Made by a program: the position numbers and the translations under genes. Shown piece after piece: positions 18,598 to 25,219 of a stretch of 32,468 bases of DNA. The stretch spans positions 1 through 32,468 of the forward strand of contig JAIKZH010000057.1 in assembly GCA_024682395.1 (NCBI GenBank), read 5' to 3'. The notes beneath the pieces were generated by a model. The model was not told the origin of the DNA. It saw only the letters and a program-made list of their open reading frames with translations, and ran no database searches. How positions within the stretch are numbered: the stretch's first letter is position 1; each line of letters starts with the position of its first letter. Origin of the DNA: Bacteroidaceae bacterium (lineage in GTDB: Bacteria; Bacteroidota; Bacteroidia; Bacteroidales; Bacteroidaceae).

Positions 18598-18634
18598 TAT
18601 TTAAGTGTGTAAATTATTAAATTTGTTTTTATAT

Positions 18635-18675
18635 ATCCGCAGTGTCTGATCATATGACATTGCGGATAATTTATT
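18635..18675 (+). terminator. Terminator of the barrel gene
   Basis: A 12-bp stem with one G-U pair (ATCCGCAGTGTC 18635-18646, GACATTGCGGAT 18656-18667), a 9-nt loop, then AATTTATT. It lies 38 bp after the barrel stop codon and separates that gene from the island promoter. Confidence 0.75.
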
Positions 18676-18781
18676 ATATAGTTTTATTGATTCGTGTTTA
18701 GAATTTATATTTTGAAATGTTTTTTTGTTTATTAGGTTGCACTGGTTTTTACATGTGACCTGAAAAAAGTTACTATTTTAT

Positions 18782-18812
18782 TTTGAGATATTCTTACTTA
18801 ATCGTAACTTTG
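18782..18812 (+). promoter_or_regulatory. Promoter opening the restriction island
   Basis: TTTG at 18782-18785, a 19-bp spacer, then TAACTTTG at 18805-18812, followed by CA. This is a full match to the Bacteroidetes TTTG-N19-TAnnTTTG promoter and the best one in the window. Expected start is near 18819. The first good ORF begins more than 340 nt downstream, after a terminator-like hairpin. Confidence 0.75.
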
Positions 18813-18818
18813 CAATTG

Positions 18819-19146
18819 CATCTTCCTATATGATGCACTCAATTAATGAGTCAATATCATAGGGTAGAGCGCTACATATTGAAAGGCGTTACTGACGCTT
18901 TGTTTTTGGTTGTTCAAAACTTCCACAATCGAACGGTAATTCAAAAACAAATGCTGGGGTGACCCCACGGGGTGTATCATATACTACTCCGTAGTGTGCT
19001 GTGAGGGTACTTTGTGCCCTCTATGCACACATTACGGATGTACTATATACTTTTACGTGGGTGTTTCTCTGTCTGTTTAATTACCAAGGCTGTGGAAGGC
19101 TATGAACAACGAACAGGCAGATGTAAACACCCGCGCTTTTTATTTT
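18819..19146 (+). ncRNA. Structured RNA, about 325 nt, upstream of restriction operon (unknown family)
   Basis: A segment with its own promoter and terminator-like end and no convincing ORF. Hairpins read by eye: a GCGT/ACGC stem at about 18886-18898; a perfect 10-bp pairing TTTGTTTTTG (18899-18908) with CAAAAACAAA (18942-18951) enclosing a TGTTC/GAACG stem; GGGGT/ACCCC near 18956-18966; a long imperfect stem-loop at about 18974-19049 (TCCGTA with TACGGA, an inner GAGGGTA/TGCCCTC); and the terminal 11+10-bp hairpin at 19056-19135. It does not begin like tmRNA and I do not recognise 6S, RNase P or SRP features. It could be a stand-alone RNA or a long regulatory leader for the downstream genes. 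Confidence 0.5.
19056..19146 (+). terminator. Terminator-like hairpin ending the structured RNA
   Basis: Outer stem of 11 bp (CGTGGGTGTTT 19056-19066 with AAACACCCGCG 19125-19135, one G-U), a small internal loop, then a 10-bp stem (19068-19077 with 19112-19121, one G-U) and a large apical loop of about 34 nt. A CTTTTTATTTT tract follows directly. The unusually large loop could also take part in other pairings. Confidence 0.65.
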
Positions 19147-19160
19147 GTAGTTAGCCAAAA

Positions 19161-19475
19161 TTGTATACCCAGTTCGCACAGGGTGTTTGCGAACAGCTCT
19201 TGAATGTGATGGCTAAGTACACTCAAGACTCACATATCACTACAACAGAAGAGGTGAAAAGCTTCTTCCACCACATCGTGTATGACCTTGACATTAATTT
19301 TCATCCTGACGATGATTTCAAGGATTATGTCAGTTACAAGACTGGCGAAAGGACAATGGATGATGAACAGGCGGAACTCTATAATCGACTGATGGACGAG
19401 TCTTTTGACGTTTGTGGCGAAAAAGTGTATGAGATTGGTAGTGACTTACTATTTAAAAGATTCCAAATAGAGTAA
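19161..19475 (+). CDS. Small acidic protein of unknown family in the restriction island
   Basis: 104 residues if it starts at the TTG 19161; the frame is closed by a TAG at 19152-19154, so the only other choice is ATG 19209 (88 residues). I prefer the TTG because the first residues (YTQFAQGVCEQLLNVMAKY) read as a normal amphipathic helix, but this is not certain. The protein is acidic (HPDDDFKDY, TMDDEQAELYNRLMDE), probably mostly helical, with no signal peptide, membrane helix or recognisable DNA-binding motif. A 7-bp inverted repeat (GTTCGCA 19172-19178, TGCGAAC 19188-19194) lies inside its first codons. It sits between two folded RNA segments and before the methyltransferase. A control or accessory protein for the operon is possible, not shown. 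Confidence 0.55.
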   Translation: MYTQFAQGVCEQLLNVMAKYTQDSHITTTEEVKSFFHHIVYDLDINFHPDDDFKDYVSYKTGERTMDDEQAELYNRLMDESFDVCGEKVYEIGSDLLFKRFQIE

Positions 19476-19515
19476 ATGAAATGAAGTAAAGGAAATATAG
19501 AGATTTTGACATCAT

Positions 19516-19694
19516 TGGTTGACTGATTAACCAGAATTACGACCTCAGGGAACACATCAGTTAGACAAGCAATTGGATGTTTGCGCTCATACGGGCGTGG
19601 ACAGTTAGATTGTTGTCTGATGTGGGCCGTCGTAAGCCTTGGTTAAACACATCTTCTTCCACGCCCCCTTTTCGAAACGAAGAGAGGGCTTTTT
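19516..19694 (+). promoter_or_regulatory. Folded leader with competing hairpins before the methyltransferase
   Basis: A 120-nt hairpin spans 19527-19646 through stacked stems: TTAACCA/TGGTTAA (19527-19533/19640-19646), TTACGAC/GTCGTAA (19537-19543/19629-19635), CACATCAG/CTGATGTG (19553-19560/19617-19624), ACAA/TTGT, CAAT/ATTG and a wobble-rich apical stem. Two alternatives compete. TGGTT (19516-19520) can pair with AACCA (19529-19533), breaking the base of the long hairpin. GGGCGTGGA (19593-19601) is perfectly complementary to TCCACGCCC (19658-19666), which overlaps the left arm of the terminator-like hairpin at 19663. This is the layout of an attenuator. No ligand class is recognised. Confidence 0.5.
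19663..19694 (+). terminator. Terminator-like hairpin immediately before methyltransferase ATG
   Basis: Left arm 19663-19673 (GCCCCCTTTTC), loop GAAAC, right arm 19679-19689 (GAAGAGAGGGC): 11 positions with one mismatch (C-A) and one G-U pair. Five T (19690-19694) follow, and the ATG is at 19696. It may end transcription just before the gene, or hide the translation start. Its left arm can instead pair with 19593-19601. Confidence 0.55.
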
Positions 19695-19695
19695 C

Positions 19696-20811
19696 ATGTC
19701 AAAGAAGAAATTTACATTCATAGACTTGTTTGCTGGTATTGGTGGATTTCATACAGCCATGCATAGCGTTGGTGGAAAATGCGTTTATGCAAGTGAATGG
19801 GACAAGAATGCCAGAATATCATACGAAGCAAACTACAAAAATATAGAACCCAAGCTATTTACAAAAGATAAAGAGGGGCGATACCTCTATTTCAACGAAG
19901 ACATCAACGATGCTCTTCCTTCGGAGATTCCCGATTTTGACATCTGTTGTGGAGGATTCCCTTGTCAGCCCTTTTCTGTCGCAGGCCTAAAGCGTGGTTT
20001 TGATGATACGAGAGGAACGCTATTCTTTAACATCGTAAACATCGTGAGAGAGAAAATAAATGCTGGTGTTCCACCAAGAGTATTGTTCCTTGAAAACGTG
20101 AGAGGTCTAAAGAATCACGACAAAGGAAAAACGTTAAAAGTGATTCTGGCAACCCTTGAAGAACTTGGGTATGACTGTTCATATGAAGTTCTTAATGCCA
20201 AATATTTTGGCGTTCCCCAAAATAGAGAGCGTTTGTTCATCATTGCTTGGTATAAAAAGCTGGTCAATGTCGATGGATTCCGTTTTCCATGGGGTATTTC
20301 TCCTAGCGGAAAGACAATTTTTGACAAAGAGAAGCAGAAAGAGGGTACGATGCCGACGAAAATTTCAGACATCTTTGAACCAAGTGACACAATAGATCCT
20401 AAGTTCACTATCTCTGACCGTATGTGGGTAGGTCATCAGAACCGCAAAGAACGAAATAAACAAAACGGCAAAGGCTTTGGCTATTCGTTATTCAATGCTG
20501 ACAGTCCATATACAAGTACAATCTCAGCACGTTATTGGAAAGACGGCAGCGAGATACTGATTGACCAGTCAGATAAAGGTCTTAACCCTCGAACGCTGAC
20601 TCCTGTTGAGGCAGGACGATTACAGGGATATAGAATCATTGGTAATGGCTGGGAGCATCCTGAGTGTGCCAACAATCAGAACTATAACGCATCTAACCTA
20701 GAGTTCAAAATTGTTGTTTCTAAGAAAGAGGCTTACCATCAGTTTGGAAACAGTGTAGCGATACCTGTCATTAAGAGACTAGCAGAAGAAATAGTAAAAC
20801 AATTGATGTAA
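19696..20811 (+). CDS. DNA (cytosine-5) methyltransferase of a restriction-modification system
   Basis: SAM-dependent enzyme that methylates cytosine C5 in a specific DNA site, protecting host DNA from the partner nuclease. With the ATG at 19696 it has 371 residues; an in-frame extension to 19639 exists but would run through the hairpin. Motifs appear in standard order: I FIDLFAGIGGFHTA (8-21), IV GGFPCQPFS with catalytic Cys90, VI ENV (133-135), VIII QNRERLF (175-181), a target-recognition region (about 190-295), IX LTPVEAGRLQGY (301-312), X YHQFGNSVAIPVI (347-359). It is followed at 17 bp by the McrB-like gene. The recognition sequence cannot be read from the sequence; TISARYWKDGSEILI in the target region may help a homology search. 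Confidence 0.95.
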   Translation: MSKKKFTFIDLFAGIGGFHTAMHSVGGKCVYASEWDKNARISYEANYKNIEPKLFTKDKEGRYLYFNEDINDALPSEIPDFDICCGGFPCQPFSVAGLKRGFDDTRGTLFFNIVNIVREKINAGVPPRVLFLENVRGLKNHDKGKTLKVILATLEELGYDCSYEVLNAKYFGVPQNRERLFIIAWYKKLVNVDGFRFPWGISPSGKTIFDKEKQKEGTMPTKISDIFEPSDTIDPKFTISDRMWVGHQNRKERNKQNGKGFGYSLFNADSPYTSTISARYWKDGSEILIDQSDKGLNPRTLTPVEAGRLQGYRIIGNGWEHPECANNQNYNASNLEFKIVVSKKEAYHQFGNSVAIPVIKRLAEEIVKQLM

Positions 20812-20828
20812 CATAATTATTGCCAGAT

Positions 20829-22874
20829 ATGGAACTAAAAAACTTAAATGAACTTAAAACAGAAATCGAATCAAAGTATCAAAACAGTTTCTCGTTTGGA
20901 GAAAGACGATTGCCCAAGTCGTTTAAGGAGTTGATAACACAATTTGATAATGATCGTATCACTTATAACGAATTCTCGTTCATAGTCCAACGTACTTCTG
21001 AAGGAAAAATTGTAGCTCCTAACCAATGGCTATATATTGCAGCGTTTTACTCATCCTACTATAAAGAGTTACTTGAATATAAGGAGGAATTGTACAATCA
21101 CCTTCTGCCAAAGTATGACAACAAAAAAGGGGCTTTAGAAGAACCTATTAAAGCCTGCTGTGACAATTTGGAAAATGCTAAATCATTATTAGAACAATAT
21201 CCTGATGGTCAAAACAAGGATTATTTAATTCGGTTTCTTTCCGATTATAAGTGGTGGGGAGGAGCCAAAACTATTGATAGGTCTGATTTCTGTGCGTCGG
21301 CAATTCTTTCAAGTGCCGGATTGGTAAATGTTGCTCAGGGATATGTCACAGATATTTGTAAATTTTTGGCGAACAATCCGGAAGCAGAAAACATTCTATT
21401 GACAGAGTCAATATCAAAAGAAGATAATTATATAACACTCTCAAAAGAAGAATTATTCCGCCAGATATCTGCCGCAACTTTCCTAAAAAAAGCATTGAGA
21501 ATCGTTATTGAAGAGGACCCCAACCTTTCCAAATTGGAAGCTCTTGGCAAATACAAAGAAACGAATAAGCAATTGAAAATTAATGGCTTCAATCTTTGGA
21601 GAAAAAAAGATGAATTACCCTCAAGGTTAGAAGACGTATATCAAGACATTGAAATAGTACACAAAGGTCAGAATTATGTTATGTACCTTGAGTGGACTCC
21701 TGCAAATATGGAGAATTTGTTCTTCCCTTTATTTAATAATGCCTATGCTGACATGTTCAAAATGGGAAAGGAAGGAAACGAATATGTTCTATATAAGTTA
21801 AGTAAAACTAAAAGAGCTAGTAAGGCTGTCGGATCTCTCCAGCAAATCTTCTACGGCGCACCAGGTACTGGTAAGTCAAATACTATTAAAAGAGAGGTGG
21901 ATGACAAAGGAAAACTAAACTTCCGTACGACATTCCATCCTGATAGCGACTACTCTACTTTTGTCGGTTGTTATAAGCCAAAGATGAAACGGAGCACCAT
22001 TACTAAAGATGGTGTAACAACAACAGAGGAGAAGATCGTTTATAGTTTTGAGCCACAGGCATTCACTAATGCATACGTACAAGCATGGAAAACCAAAGAT
22101 GATGTGTATCTAATTATCGAAGAGATTAACAGAGGTAATTGTGCTCAGATATTCGGGGATTTATTCCAGTTGCTTGACCGCAAGAATGGCGAATCTGAAT
22201 ACCCAGTGATTGCAGACTCTTCTCTTGCTGATTATCTAAAAACCGCATTGGTGGATAGTGAGCGTGATGATATTCCTGCTGATGTGAAGAACGGAAGAAA
22301 ACTAAAACTACCTTCAAATCTCTATATTTGGGTCACGATGAACACAAGTGACCAAAGCCTTTTCCCTATTGACTCTGCTTTCAAGCGCCGCTGGGAATGG
22401 AAATATATGAAGATAAAGGACGAGGGCAAAGAATGGAAGATAGACGTAAAAATAAAAGATGCCAACGGAGAGGAAAAGCAGGTTGACTGGTGGAATTTTA
22501 TCCGTAAGGTCAACGAAATAATCGCTTCTATGACATCAAGTGCTGATAAGCAATTGGGATACTTCTTCTGCAAGGCAGACAAGAAAACACCTGAAAGGGC
22601 AAGTGATCCGAATGGCGAAAACGACCTTATTTCTTTAGATACGTTTGTTAGCAAGGTGCTGTTCTATCTTTGGAATGATGTGTTCAAAGATTATGGCTTC
22701 GAGGATGCTTCATTGTTCCAATACATCAAAACGGAAGACGGGAAGGAAACTAAAAAGGATCTTACCTTTCCTGATTTCTACAAGGAAGATAGCAACGAGG
22801 TAAACTCTACAATGGTAAGCGACTTCGTTCAGAAAGTAATGAACTGGAAAAAGAAGGAAGAAGAAAAGAACTGA
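20829..22874 (+). CDS. McrB-like AAA+ NTPase (LlaJI/McrBC-type restriction subunit)
   Basis: Predicted nucleotide-driven motor and DNA-recognition subunit of the restriction complex. A TTG three codons upstream (20820) is possible, but the ATG at 20829 is preferred (681 residues). The first 330 residues are a mostly helical domain I do not recognise. The AAA+ domain then shows Walker A GAPGTGKS (343-350), Walker B LIIEEINRG (428-436), the McrB-family MNTSDQS motif (504-510, the counterpart of MNTAD in GTP-using McrB), and FKRRWEW (518-524) as a likely arginine-finger region. Nucleotide preference (GTP by analogy with McrB) is inference. Its stop overlaps the start of the nuclease gene by one base (TGATG), implying coupled translation and a complex of the two. 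Confidence 0.9.
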   Translation: MELKNLNELKTEIESKYQNSFSFGERRLPKSFKELITQFDNDRITYNEFSFIVQRTSEGKIVAPNQWLYIAAFYSSYYKELLEYKEELYNHLLPKYDNKKGALEEPIKACCDNLENAKSLLEQYPDGQNKDYLIRFLSDYKWWGGAKTIDRSDFCASAILSSAGLVNVAQGYVTDICKFLANNPEAENILLTESISKEDNYITLSKEELFRQISAATFLKKALRIVIEEDPNLSKLEALGKYKETNKQLKINGFNLWRKKDELPSRLEDVYQDIEIVHKGQNYVMYLEWTPANMENLFFPLFNNAYADMFKMGKEGNEYVLYKLSKTKRASKAVGSLQQIFYGAPGTGKSNTIKREVDDKGKLNFRTTFHPDSDYSTFVGCYKPKMKRSTITKDGVTTTEEKIVYSFEPQAFTNAYVQAWKTKDDVYLIIEEINRGNCAQIFGDLFQLLDRKNGESEYPVIADSSLADYLKTALVDSERDDIPADVKNGRKLKLPSNLYIWVTMNTSDQSLFPIDSAFKRRWEWKYMKIKDEGKEWKIDVKIKDANGEEKQVDWWNFIRKVNEIIASMTSSADKQLGYFFCKADKKTPERASDPNGENDLISLDTFVSKVLFYLWNDVFKDYGFEDASLFQYIKTEDGKETKKDLTFPDFYKEDSNEVNSTMVSDFVQKVMNWKKKEEEKN

Positions 22875-25219
22875 TGTATATCCTATTTGAAGAACACCAG
22901 TACGAAAGTTCCCGTGTAGAGAAGATTCTGAAGGATATCTATGCTCTACAAGATGTTGACAAGCGGGTATGTGTACAATATGTGGGTTATTTCTACAATC
23001 CGCATCTGCACGACTGTGTGTTTATACTACCTAAGGTGTTGCTTACAGAACAAGAAACATTGGTAGGAGTAAAACAGGAGTCAGGCGAACCAGTAACACC
23101 TGAAATGGTACTGGAACCGAAAGGTCAGGAAAAGCTAAGCAAGGAGTACAGAAAGTTCATTTACGAGTTCTCGGTGTGGATTTACAGAGCCTTGAATGTG
23201 TTCTACAAAGCCAATCCCAAGAGTAAGGCTATTCTTTACAAGCACCTTCCGCAAGCAGGTAAAGGTCGTAGGCATCAGGCGAAAACATATCTGGACATAG
23301 TGCTGTCGCTCATCAACTTTAATCAGGAGAATCGCGACTTCGTACTTTTCACAATCAAGAACCTACACAGAGGGAATAACAAAATCAACTGGATGCGTAC
23401 TATCTCGCATTCACAGGCTTTCGTACAGGATAAGGATGTCGTCTATTTGAATCCTGTAAACAAGAAGCGTATCGTAAACTATGAAGAAGAGTTATTCGTC
23501 ATCTTCTATAGTATTTTGAATTATCTGAACGGTGCATATGGTTTTCATACCCCCATCAATATTCAATACGAACTGATTACTGGCAAGCAGTTCAAACAGT
23601 ACATGCACGGGATGGGCAAGACGAGACTTATGCAGATTAAGTACAAGTATTTCTCGGATAAGGCTCTTCAGTTATGGGATTTGTGCTATGCCTTCTTCGA
23701 AAATTCATATCGGATTGCCATCAACACAAATACACAGGAATATCTTCTGACCAAGAACTTCAATATCGTGTTCGAGGCAATGATAGACGAACTGATAGGA
23801 ACACCACATCATAATATCCCTAAAGGACTTGCAGATCAAGACGATGGCAAGCGAGTGGATCATATGTACACAGATCTCGCATTAACATCAGCAGAGGCAC
23901 AAACGAACAGAGAGGTCTATTATATCGGTGACAGTAAGTACTATAAGAGTGGGCATCCGCTGACATCGGAGTCTATCTATAAGCAATACACGTATGCAAA
24001 GAACGTCATACAATGGAATGTCAATCTTTTCTTGTCGGACGATACTGCATATGATGAACTCGACAAACATAAAAGACAGGCAGATAAAGACCGTTTCGGC
24101 AACATACGCTTACAAGATGCATCGGTGACAGAGGGCTACGATGTGATTCCAAACTTCTTTATCAGCGCCTTTGTCAATAATGACCTAAAGTATAACGTTA
24201 AGGAAAATATACGGCCACATAAGGATAAGAACGAGGAACATTGCACCAAGATTTCGTATCAATTTCCAGATCGTTTGTTTGACAGGGATACATTGTTCTT
24301 GTCTCAATATGATGTAAACTTCCTATATGTGCTCTTCTTGTATGCTCGTAATAAGACTAACGAGAAAATACAATGGAAAGAACTCGTGAGAAAGAAGTTT
24401 CGTGACGAGATAAGGGCTGTTATTCAGAAAAAATTCATGATCTATGCGATGCGGGCCCGTTTGGGCGTGGATGGCGCATTGTACCTGCAGCAACACTTCT
24501 ACGAACTGAACGGAAGAGTTTTCCAACCATACGGAGAGGAACGAATGACATATTTTGCATATGCTCGTCCTACAAAGAATATGGAGAATACTCAGACACA
24601 ATATGATGACTTGTCACGATACTTTATTATTGAAAAATGCGGCATGGGACAAGACCCGCATGAAGTGCTTAAATCCGCTATAGAACAGGAACTACAGAAA
24701 CCTATCGCACATTCGCAATGGCTGACGCTGCATTATCTGGAACGATACACGAACAAAGGTATTCTGGTGGGTTACTACAAGGATGAGGAGCATCTAAAAT
24801 GGATTCTTGGTCATAACGATAAAGGCTCATTGGTTTACAATGTACGTTTACAAGTAAAAGGCGAAGAACAAAGAGCAGGTGCGCATACTTCCGGATTCTA
24901 CAGCAAGAAGAATGTTCAGTTCGTTATACTCTATACAGACAACGTAGAACAAACGAGTGAATATCGCGTCTTTCACGTAAAGGATACTGCTAGCAAGGTT
25001 ACAGAAGAAAGAATGCGTGATACATGGTATCCATTTGATGTTAAAGGTTCTCATTTCTTCTTCCGATTCGATGAAGAGGTGACACTTGGAAAATTAATAA
25101 TTACTGAATTGATTAAACGTCTGAAGAAAAATCATTTGGCGGAGTTTGGGGAGTACACTCAACATGAGCCCCTTTTTACGACTGCTGAGGAAGTCCTTGA
25201 GTTTCGTATGAGTTTGTAA
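22874..25219 (+). CDS. LlaJI/McrC-like restriction endonuclease subunit
   Basis: Predicted nuclease partner of the McrB-like NTPase. A PD-(D/E)xK core is visible: an acidic helix residue Glu301 (VFEAMIDEL), Asp329 in VDHMYTDLAL, then YYIGDSKYYK with Asp353-x-Lys355 and a following Gln371 in IYKQYTYAK. The N-terminal 280 residues precede the nuclease, as in McrC and LlaJI-family proteins where this part contacts the NTPase ring. At 781 residues it is clearly longer than McrC (about 350) or, as I recall, LlaJI-type subunits; the extra C-terminal part (about 560-781) includes a beta-rich stretch (VQFVILYTDNV to SHFFFRFDEE) that could be a separate DNA- or base-reading domain. It overlaps the NTPase gene by one base and is followed by two hairpins. 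Confidence 0.85.
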   Translation: MYILFEEHQYESSRVEKILKDIYALQDVDKRVCVQYVGYFYNPHLHDCVFILPKVLLTEQETLVGVKQESGEPVTPEMVLEPKGQEKLSKEYRKFIYEFSVWIYRALNVFYKANPKSKAILYKHLPQAGKGRRHQAKTYLDIVLSLINFNQENRDFVLFTIKNLHRGNNKINWMRTISHSQAFVQDKDVVYLNPVNKKRIVNYEEELFVIFYSILNYLNGAYGFHTPINIQYELITGKQFKQYMHGMGKTRLMQIKYKYFSDKALQLWDLCYAFFENSYRIAINTNTQEYLLTKNFNIVFEAMIDELIGTPHHNIPKGLADQDDGKRVDHMYTDLALTSAEAQTNREVYYIGDSKYYKSGHPLTSESIYKQYTYAKNVIQWNVNLFLSDDTAYDELDKHKRQADKDRFGNIRLQDASVTEGYDVIPNFFISAFVNNDLKYNVKENIRPHKDKNEEHCTKISYQFPDRLFDRDTLFLSQYDVNFLYVLFLYARNKTNEKIQWKELVRKKFRDEIRAVIQKKFMIYAMRARLGVDGALYLQQHFYELNGRVFQPYGEERMTYFAYARPTKNMENTQTQYDDLSRYFIIEKCGMGQDPHEVLKSAIEQELQKPIAHSQWLTLHYLERYTNKGILVGYYKDEEHLKWILGHNDKGSLVYNVRLQVKGEEQRAGAHTSGFYSKKNVQFVILYTDNVEQTSEYRVFHVKDTASKVTEERMRDTWYPFDVKGSHFFFRFDEEVTLGKLIITELIKRLKKNHLAEFGEYTQHEPLFTTAEEVLEFRMSL

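Follow-up and report, generated by a model that had tools for sequence, protein, structure and literature searches.

A co-varying 5′ leader RNA family of the Bacteroidales, predicted to act as a two-state transcription attenuator ahead of restriction-modification and other operons

Introduction

Transcription attenuators and terminator-type riboswitches are built on a common layout, in which a promoter is followed by a leader, an intrinsic-terminator-like hairpin and a rival pairing that breaks this hairpin. In Bacteroides, UpxY-dependent capsule leaders bring about premature termination ahead of horizontally varied operons, the first gene of which encodes a NusG paralogue. Processive antitermination elements such as EAR and put are sizeable, pseudoknotted leaders that stand at the head of operons with unrelated cargo and stay with RNA polymerase through the operon's terminators; to our knowledge, such elements have no conserved terminator upstream of their last helix. 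We know of few restriction-modification systems that are under the control of an RNA switch.

Two Rfam leaders, epsC/EAR (RF01735) and JUMPstart (RF01707), are covered by the RNA table and the epsC account of PMC2864571, and the same table holds Bacteroides-1, Bacteroidales-1 and other Bacteroidetes RNAs. Among restriction-modification systems, LlaJI is described in the relevant section of PMC1459862 as two methyltransferase genes together with the McrB-like R1 and R2, and a title cited there names a "dichotomous epigenetic mechanism" for its control.

Here, we analysed 32,468 nucleotides of DNA from a Bacteroidaceae bacterium (the window), in which an initial annotation had placed a stand-alone structured RNA at the head of a restriction-modification operon. 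In our reading, to which we assign a probability of roughly 0.55, positions 18819–19194 (this and all following features lie on the + strand) are predicted to form a two-state cis-acting leader, namely a transcription attenuator with a read-through fold. The leader has the layout of attenuators and terminator-type riboswitches and differs from them in having no known aptamer and no conserved leader peptide that we noticed, in the unrelatedness of its cargo, which offers no hint of a metabolite as a riboswitch would suggest, and in a helix (K) formed after the terminator. With the UpxY-dependent leaders it shares a predicted premature termination ahead of varied operons; a NusG-type family is not among the 25 most frequent of the 44 Pfam families found in 102 first-gene proteins. 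Like epsC/EAR and JUMPstart, as far as the table and epsC account describe them, it is re-used before operons that include surface-polysaccharide genes, but those leaders belong to other phyla and the cargo here often consists of methyltransferases and acyltransferases. Bacteroides-1 and Bacteroidales-1 are, by the same table, structured RNAs of the same phylum; they gave no cmscan match here, a comparison that covers the motifs entered in Rfam, of which Bacteroides-2, for example, is not one. LlaJI, as described in that section, shares with the window's cassette the methyltransferase(s), a subunit with a McrB-like GTPase domain and a partner, and the section holds no counterpart of the leader or of a second structured element of the window (RNA2).

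Materials and methods

Relatives were sought by blastn and with a covariance model of an 88-position core built from 14 copies. From the matches listed by the covariance search of the family, 120 loci were chosen by us; 20 of these lacked a clear 3′ end and a further 4 were short or too close to an end, which left 96 loci plus the window, and 92 loci after removal of near-duplicates. A repeat sample of 119 loci gave 76 new loci once 24 without a clear end or near an edge and 19 overlapping ones were set aside. The next gene was counted when it had about 80 codons or more, and 102 of 106 first-gene proteins were scanned for families, the very long ones of L110, L128, L143 and L162 being left out.

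Co-variation was assessed by an alignment-free test that compares the pairing energy of two strands from the same locus (cis) with that of strands from different loci (trans). We relied on this test because 98 of the 140 top column pairs in a G-test list were not complementary in 70% of the sequences.

Results and discussion

The conserved stretch spans about 380 bases (18819–19194) between the predicted promoter and the first gene of the operon. The TTTG-N19-TAACTTTG promoter described by the initial annotation is present at 18782–18812, with TTTG at 18782–18785, a 19-nt spacer and TAACTTTG at 18805–18812, an arrangement that we take to be of the Bacteroidota type, and 93 of 119 relatives carry a TAnnTTTG box 35–85 nt ahead of the conserved core, where shuffling leads one to expect 3.5. 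Transcription is predicted to start near 18819. The dense self-complementarity that had been remarked on is likewise borne out, with a minimum free energy (MFE) of -122 kcal/mol as compared with -81.4 ± 4.65 kcal/mol for 100 dinucleotide shuffles (z -8.7), as is the two-part hairpin in front of a U-run, in which 19056–19077 pair with 19112–19135 (-38.3 kcal/mol in the local fold of 19048–19146) and C-TTTTT-A-TTTT follows up to 19146. Position 19146 had been taken as the end of the RNA, which does not hold: conserved sequence continues with GUAGU (19147–19151) and then a hairpin at 19172–19194. Inverted repeats of at least 11 were found in 4 of 119 upstream regions (0.45 expected), and we rejected an invertible promoter as a general feature.

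The initial annotation had recognised no standard RNA family in the element and, from its 5′ end, had not taken it for a tmRNA, and we concur with both. The window had no match to Rfam 15 at gathering score, the region 18600–19700 gave chance-level matches only up to E 5, cmscan of 35 loci (two of which cover one copy) returned only tRNAs, and a tRNA/tmRNA search of the window was empty. A search of open-licence literature yielded nothing that we recognised as this RNA, and the passages of PMC2864571, PMC8040213 and PMC7366714 that were consulted contain no fitting description. Judged by its sequence, this is a new RNA family of a known kind with no match in Rfam 15.

Co-variation in homologues, a check named by the initial annotation, is present and was repeated on further loci. 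In the 92 loci, the strongest signal came from helix H3, with a pairing energy of -23.9 kcal/mol in cis and -11.4 kcal/mol in trans (z -35.5), and H3 was also the strongest among the complementary column pairs listed by the G-test. Its 5′ strand (GGUUGUUC and CUUCCACA) occupies 18908–18927 and its 3′ strand (UGUGGAAG and GAACAAC) 19091–19110, within the terminator loop, so that H3 links the loop of an upstream hairpin to that of the terminator. Cis/trans z-scores were -13.3 for K, -9.3 for H1, -7.7 for the terminator stem (T), -4.6 for P1 and -2.3 for H2, with control regions at -0.1 and -1.1; the 76 new loci gave -28.4 for H3, -11.7 for K, -10.3 for H1/H2 and -7.6 for T, with controls at 1.1 and -0.1. 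When permutation was confined to similarity clusters, six helices weakened yet stayed below the permutations, with z-scores over 25 clusters of -13.8 for H3, -6.9 for the upper terminator stem, -5.9 for a helix that we call rod-mid, -5.3 for K, -4.8 for H1/H2 and -2.9 for T (controls -0.4 and 0.6). A consensus from nine full copies folds into one long closed structure of 90 pairs; for 28 of these, one or more copies have both bases exchanged and the pairing preserved.

Along the leader, the fold begins with the 5′ hairpin P1 (18817–18871), near the predicted transcription start. The closing helix H1/H2 (joint z -12.4) has its 5′ strand (GCUACAUAUUGAAAGGCG) at 18871–18888 and its 3′ strand (CGCUUUUUAUUUUGUAGU) at 19134–19151, the latter extending beyond the U-run. 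As an alternative to H1/H2, the second half of the 5′ strand can pair locally with ACGCUUU, up to 18901, to form P2; the strand GAAAGGCG thus has as its partner either this ACGCUUU or the foot of the terminator together with the U-run. P2 is near-invariant and without co-variation (z 0.1, 92 loci), and since it hardly varies only its presence is known. The 5′ strand of rod-mid (18942–18956, z -12.8) is followed by the central hairpin P5 (18965–19060), which is part of the consensus fold and pairs CCACG (18965–18969) with CGUGG (19056–19060) around an inner helix GUGUGC/GCACAC, the inner part having a z-score of -16.5. The 5′ arm of the terminator, CGUGGGUGUUU with the upper stem CUCUGUCUGUUU, lies at 19056–19078, and the 3′ arm (AACAGGCAG...AAACACCCGCG) with the U-run at 19112–19146; the stem is present in the local MFE fold of 77 of 92 loci, and at least six U in 8 nt were counted in 88 of 92. 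The downstream hairpin (19172–19194, 7 bp by folding) lies before the next start codon, and its loop strand GGGUGUU (19181–19187) can pair with AACACCC (19126–19132), the pairing termed K. Of 97 loci, 73 have a K of at least -9 kcal/mol in strength, as compared with an expectation of 13.2, and by a rule-based count its site lies within a loop closed by at least 4 bp in 39 of these 73.

Two strands co-vary with two partners each. Positions 19067–19078 do so with 18942–18956 in rod-mid, which retains z-scores of -5.9 to -10.2 under within-cluster permutation, and with 19112–19120 in the upper terminator stem (z -11.2), two pairings that compete for the same bases. Positions 19125–19132 co-vary with the terminator 5′ arm in T and with the downstream loop in K. 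Among the less regular copies, two short variants (L008 1307–1467 and L010 1439–1643) appear on visual inspection to have lost the central hairpin along with the terminator 5′ arm, whereas their closing strands, U-run and downstream hairpin are retained. In another genome (G325, contig C14), two copies (L115 and L116) lie about 10 kb apart on opposite strands, and here the 5′ hairpin looks different and the K pairing is not clear.

Relatives of the element are widespread in the Bacteroidales. Matches to the covariance model occur in 236 of 399 genomes of the family (E ≤ 0.01, source genomes of the model included), a threshold at which about 4 of the 399 could be chance, and the E-values of the model are rough; blastn matched 11 of 101 genomes, own genome included. 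At E ≤ 1e-4, the model matched 11 of 246 other genomes of the order and none of 197 other genomes of the phylum. A pattern scan found, among the matches listed, Prevotella, Bacteroides, Parabacteroides, Muribaculaceae, Paludibacteraceae, Lentimicrobiaceae, Tidjanibacter and others. This large co-varying RNA thus recurs in over half of the genomes sampled from a bacterial family of the gut. The window's own 2.6-Mb genome (G000), which its relatives suggest to be Prevotella-like Bacteroidaceae, carries a second, diverged copy (contig C26, 19114–19207; L002, L106), which precedes a 944-aa protein of lectin/transglutaminase type.

In these relatives the element lies consistently upstream of, and on the same strand as, a gene. 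At the 120 loci, the next gene was on the same strand in 104, on the opposite strand in 7 and not found within 1 kb in 9, while the upstream genes were divided 42 to 39 between the strands. From this strand bias, and from co-varying pairing that runs past the U-run to just before the start codon, it follows that the element is a structured 5′ leader and not the stand-alone unit that had been proposed. The broader claim of a regulatory RNA before a restriction-modification operon survives in part: the RNA is of a regulatory type, co-varies and is linked to the cassette, and it is not separate from the gene behind it. The short terminated RNA would be one of the leader's two predicted products.

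From the co-varying sequence and from its place and strand relative to genes, we infer transcription, termination, switching and a signal as follows. An intrinsic-terminator-like hairpin with a U-run lies between the promoter and the first gene, and conserved rival pairings of the strands 19067–19078 and 19125–19132 exclude this hairpin; two strands with two rival partners each fit a leader that alternates between a rod and a terminator fold. In the OFF state, the leader would adopt local P2 together with the terminator hairpin, and transcription would end at the U-run near 19146 with the release of a short RNA, about 325 nt in length. In the ON state, the 5′ and 3′ halves of the leader would pair with each other in a long rod made up of H1/H2, H3 and rod-mid, which would deprive the terminator of its strands and allow RNA polymerase to pass; after a further 50 nt of transcription, K would form between the downstream hairpin's loop and the terminator 3′ arm and lock the ON fold beside the start codon. 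Some signal would set the switch. Attenuation with a self-locking read-through fold would account for most of the conserved pairings, and compensatory mutations in the strands that have two rival partners offer a direct test of the mechanism.

The two folds of the window are close in energy (-129.4 kcal/mol for the rod and -125.4 kcal/mol with the terminator enforced). Across 92 loci, the MFE of the full-length RNA favoured the rod in 67 and the terminator in 16, with no majority in 9, and for RNA cut at the U-run the corresponding counts were 61, 17 and 14. Since most loci favour the rod even for the cut RNA, termination would need to be under kinetic control, and the RNA by itself may spend most of its time in the ON fold. 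Strict per-locus thresholds were passed by T in 59 of 92 loci, by K in 60, by T and K jointly in 41, and by P2, H1/H2, T and K all together in 20. Against the switch we count that P2 is without co-variation, that the rod segment H3ext shows complementarity no better than shuffles, that T falls to z -2.9 over the 25 clusters, and that neither the centre nor the terminator 5′ arm is present in the two short variants. Moreover, the terminator stem and H3 cross as a pseudoknot and might form together.

H1 and K are completed only after the U-run has been passed and therefore cannot alter that one termination event. Since both exist only in read-through RNA, the main rival is a translational role: a leader acting on translation or mRNA stability, in which a pseudoknotted RNA beside the start codon controls ribosome access and the apparent terminator stem is merely structural. 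H1 and K co-vary strongly, and where the K hairpin is clear (39 loci) the called start codon lies a median of 17 nt away, at 0–40 nt in 17 cases, both of which favour such a role. So do the short variants, which dispense with the terminator 5′ arm, and with them a K of -21.4 kcal/mol in L086. We nonetheless consider a purely translational leader somewhat unlikely, given that the terminator stem co-varies in its own right and that the U-run, at its frequency in the 92 loci, appears to contain more U than are required for pairing with GAAAG.

A processive antitermination element like EAR or put, staying with RNA polymerase through the terminators of the operon, would fit the size, the pseudoknots, the position at the head of operons and the unrelated cargo, as well as the conservation of structure beyond the terminator. 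The terminator that is conserved here upstream of the last helix sets the leader apart from those elements as we know them, and the epsC (RF01735) and JUMPstart models had no match in the window or in 18600–19700, which makes this explanation unlikely. Less probable again is an RNA gene ending at 19146 and acting in trans or as part of a defence system; its own predicted promoter and strong terminator-like end would suit it, while 104 of the 111 loci with a gene within 1 kb have that gene on the same strand and co-variation extends about 40 nt past the U-run. We regard as highly implausible a DNA element, such as a MITE-like mobile palindrome or a recombination site spreading with its cargo, which the many copies (11 covariance-model matches in one genome, G057) and varied cargo might suggest, and we reject a mobile DNA hairpin, since the promoter spacing is fixed, the strand is biased to the downstream gene, two-rival-partner co-variation is present, and a single contig of a viral collection matched the pattern while phage and plasmid records gave no blastn match.

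Returning to the attenuator, the same leader family recurs before unrelated defence and surface genes. The 102 first-gene proteins that were scanned comprised 21 C5 methyltransferases, 9 of the acyltransferase-3 family, 4 BspA-type LRR proteins, 3 MBOAT, 3 N6-methylases and others. With 2 to 6 C5-methyltransferase matches in each of ten genomes, the window's included, 21 of 102 represents a large excess. A wider reading, which we offer tentatively, is that of a transferable bistable RNA switch across the Bacteroidales, through which a shared trans signal, perhaps phage or envelope stress, could reach dozens of unrelated operons; its cargo, with equal reserve, would be restriction, acyltransferase and surface-protein operons. 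Such a switch would work by strand exchange on both sides of the terminator, and the read-through RNA would lock itself open via a kissing loop. The leader family offers a testable handle on when Bacteroidales turn on defence and surface genes.

In the window, the leader is followed by an 88-aa ORF (19209–19475), which the initial annotation had noted and which is real, as it belongs to a conserved protein family with 137 homologues; neither Pfam nor PADLOC returned a match for it. An antitoxin-like control of this ORF by the RNA had also been considered and finds no support here, given that outside the window just two of the 240 loci fetched (L232 and L260) have the ORF behind the RNA. In L232, translations show the RNA, the ORF, a methyltransferase and a McrB-like protein in the same order as in the window. 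Next comes RNA2 (19500–19695, z -4.9), directly before the start codon of the methyltransferase, which ends in a GC-rich hairpin and five U just before the ATG. RNA2 is 82–97% identical in 14 of the 120 loci, 12 of which have a member of the methyltransferase cluster as their first called gene; by blastn it matched 3 of 101 genomes of relatives, own genome included.

The cassette itself comprises a C5-cytosine DNA methyltransferase (19696–20811; PF00145, E 7.9e-83, frame from 19639), a McrB-like AAA/GTPase restriction subunit (20820–22874; PDB 6ut3, E 1.5e-10; PADLOC REase_II, E 3.5e-43) and a 781-aa protein (22874–25219), the predicted partner subunit, for which Pfam, PADLOC and PDB sequences gave no match and which has 8 homologues among the downstream genes of the fetched loci; this is the composition of a LlaJI-like restriction-modification system. 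All 7 homologues of the McrB-like subunit and all 8 of the partner lie in loci that begin with a gene of the methyltransferase cluster. Sequence comparison thus indicates that the window's subtype goes with a LlaJI-like 5mC-methyltransferase/McrB-like cassette: in subtype A, which has a terminator arm resembling AAGCACCC, 17 of 21 loci encode a C5 methyltransferase in one of their first two genes, as compared with 0 of 69 loci of the other subtypes, a difference whose p value of 6e-15 is post hoc, the grouping having been set after the table was seen.
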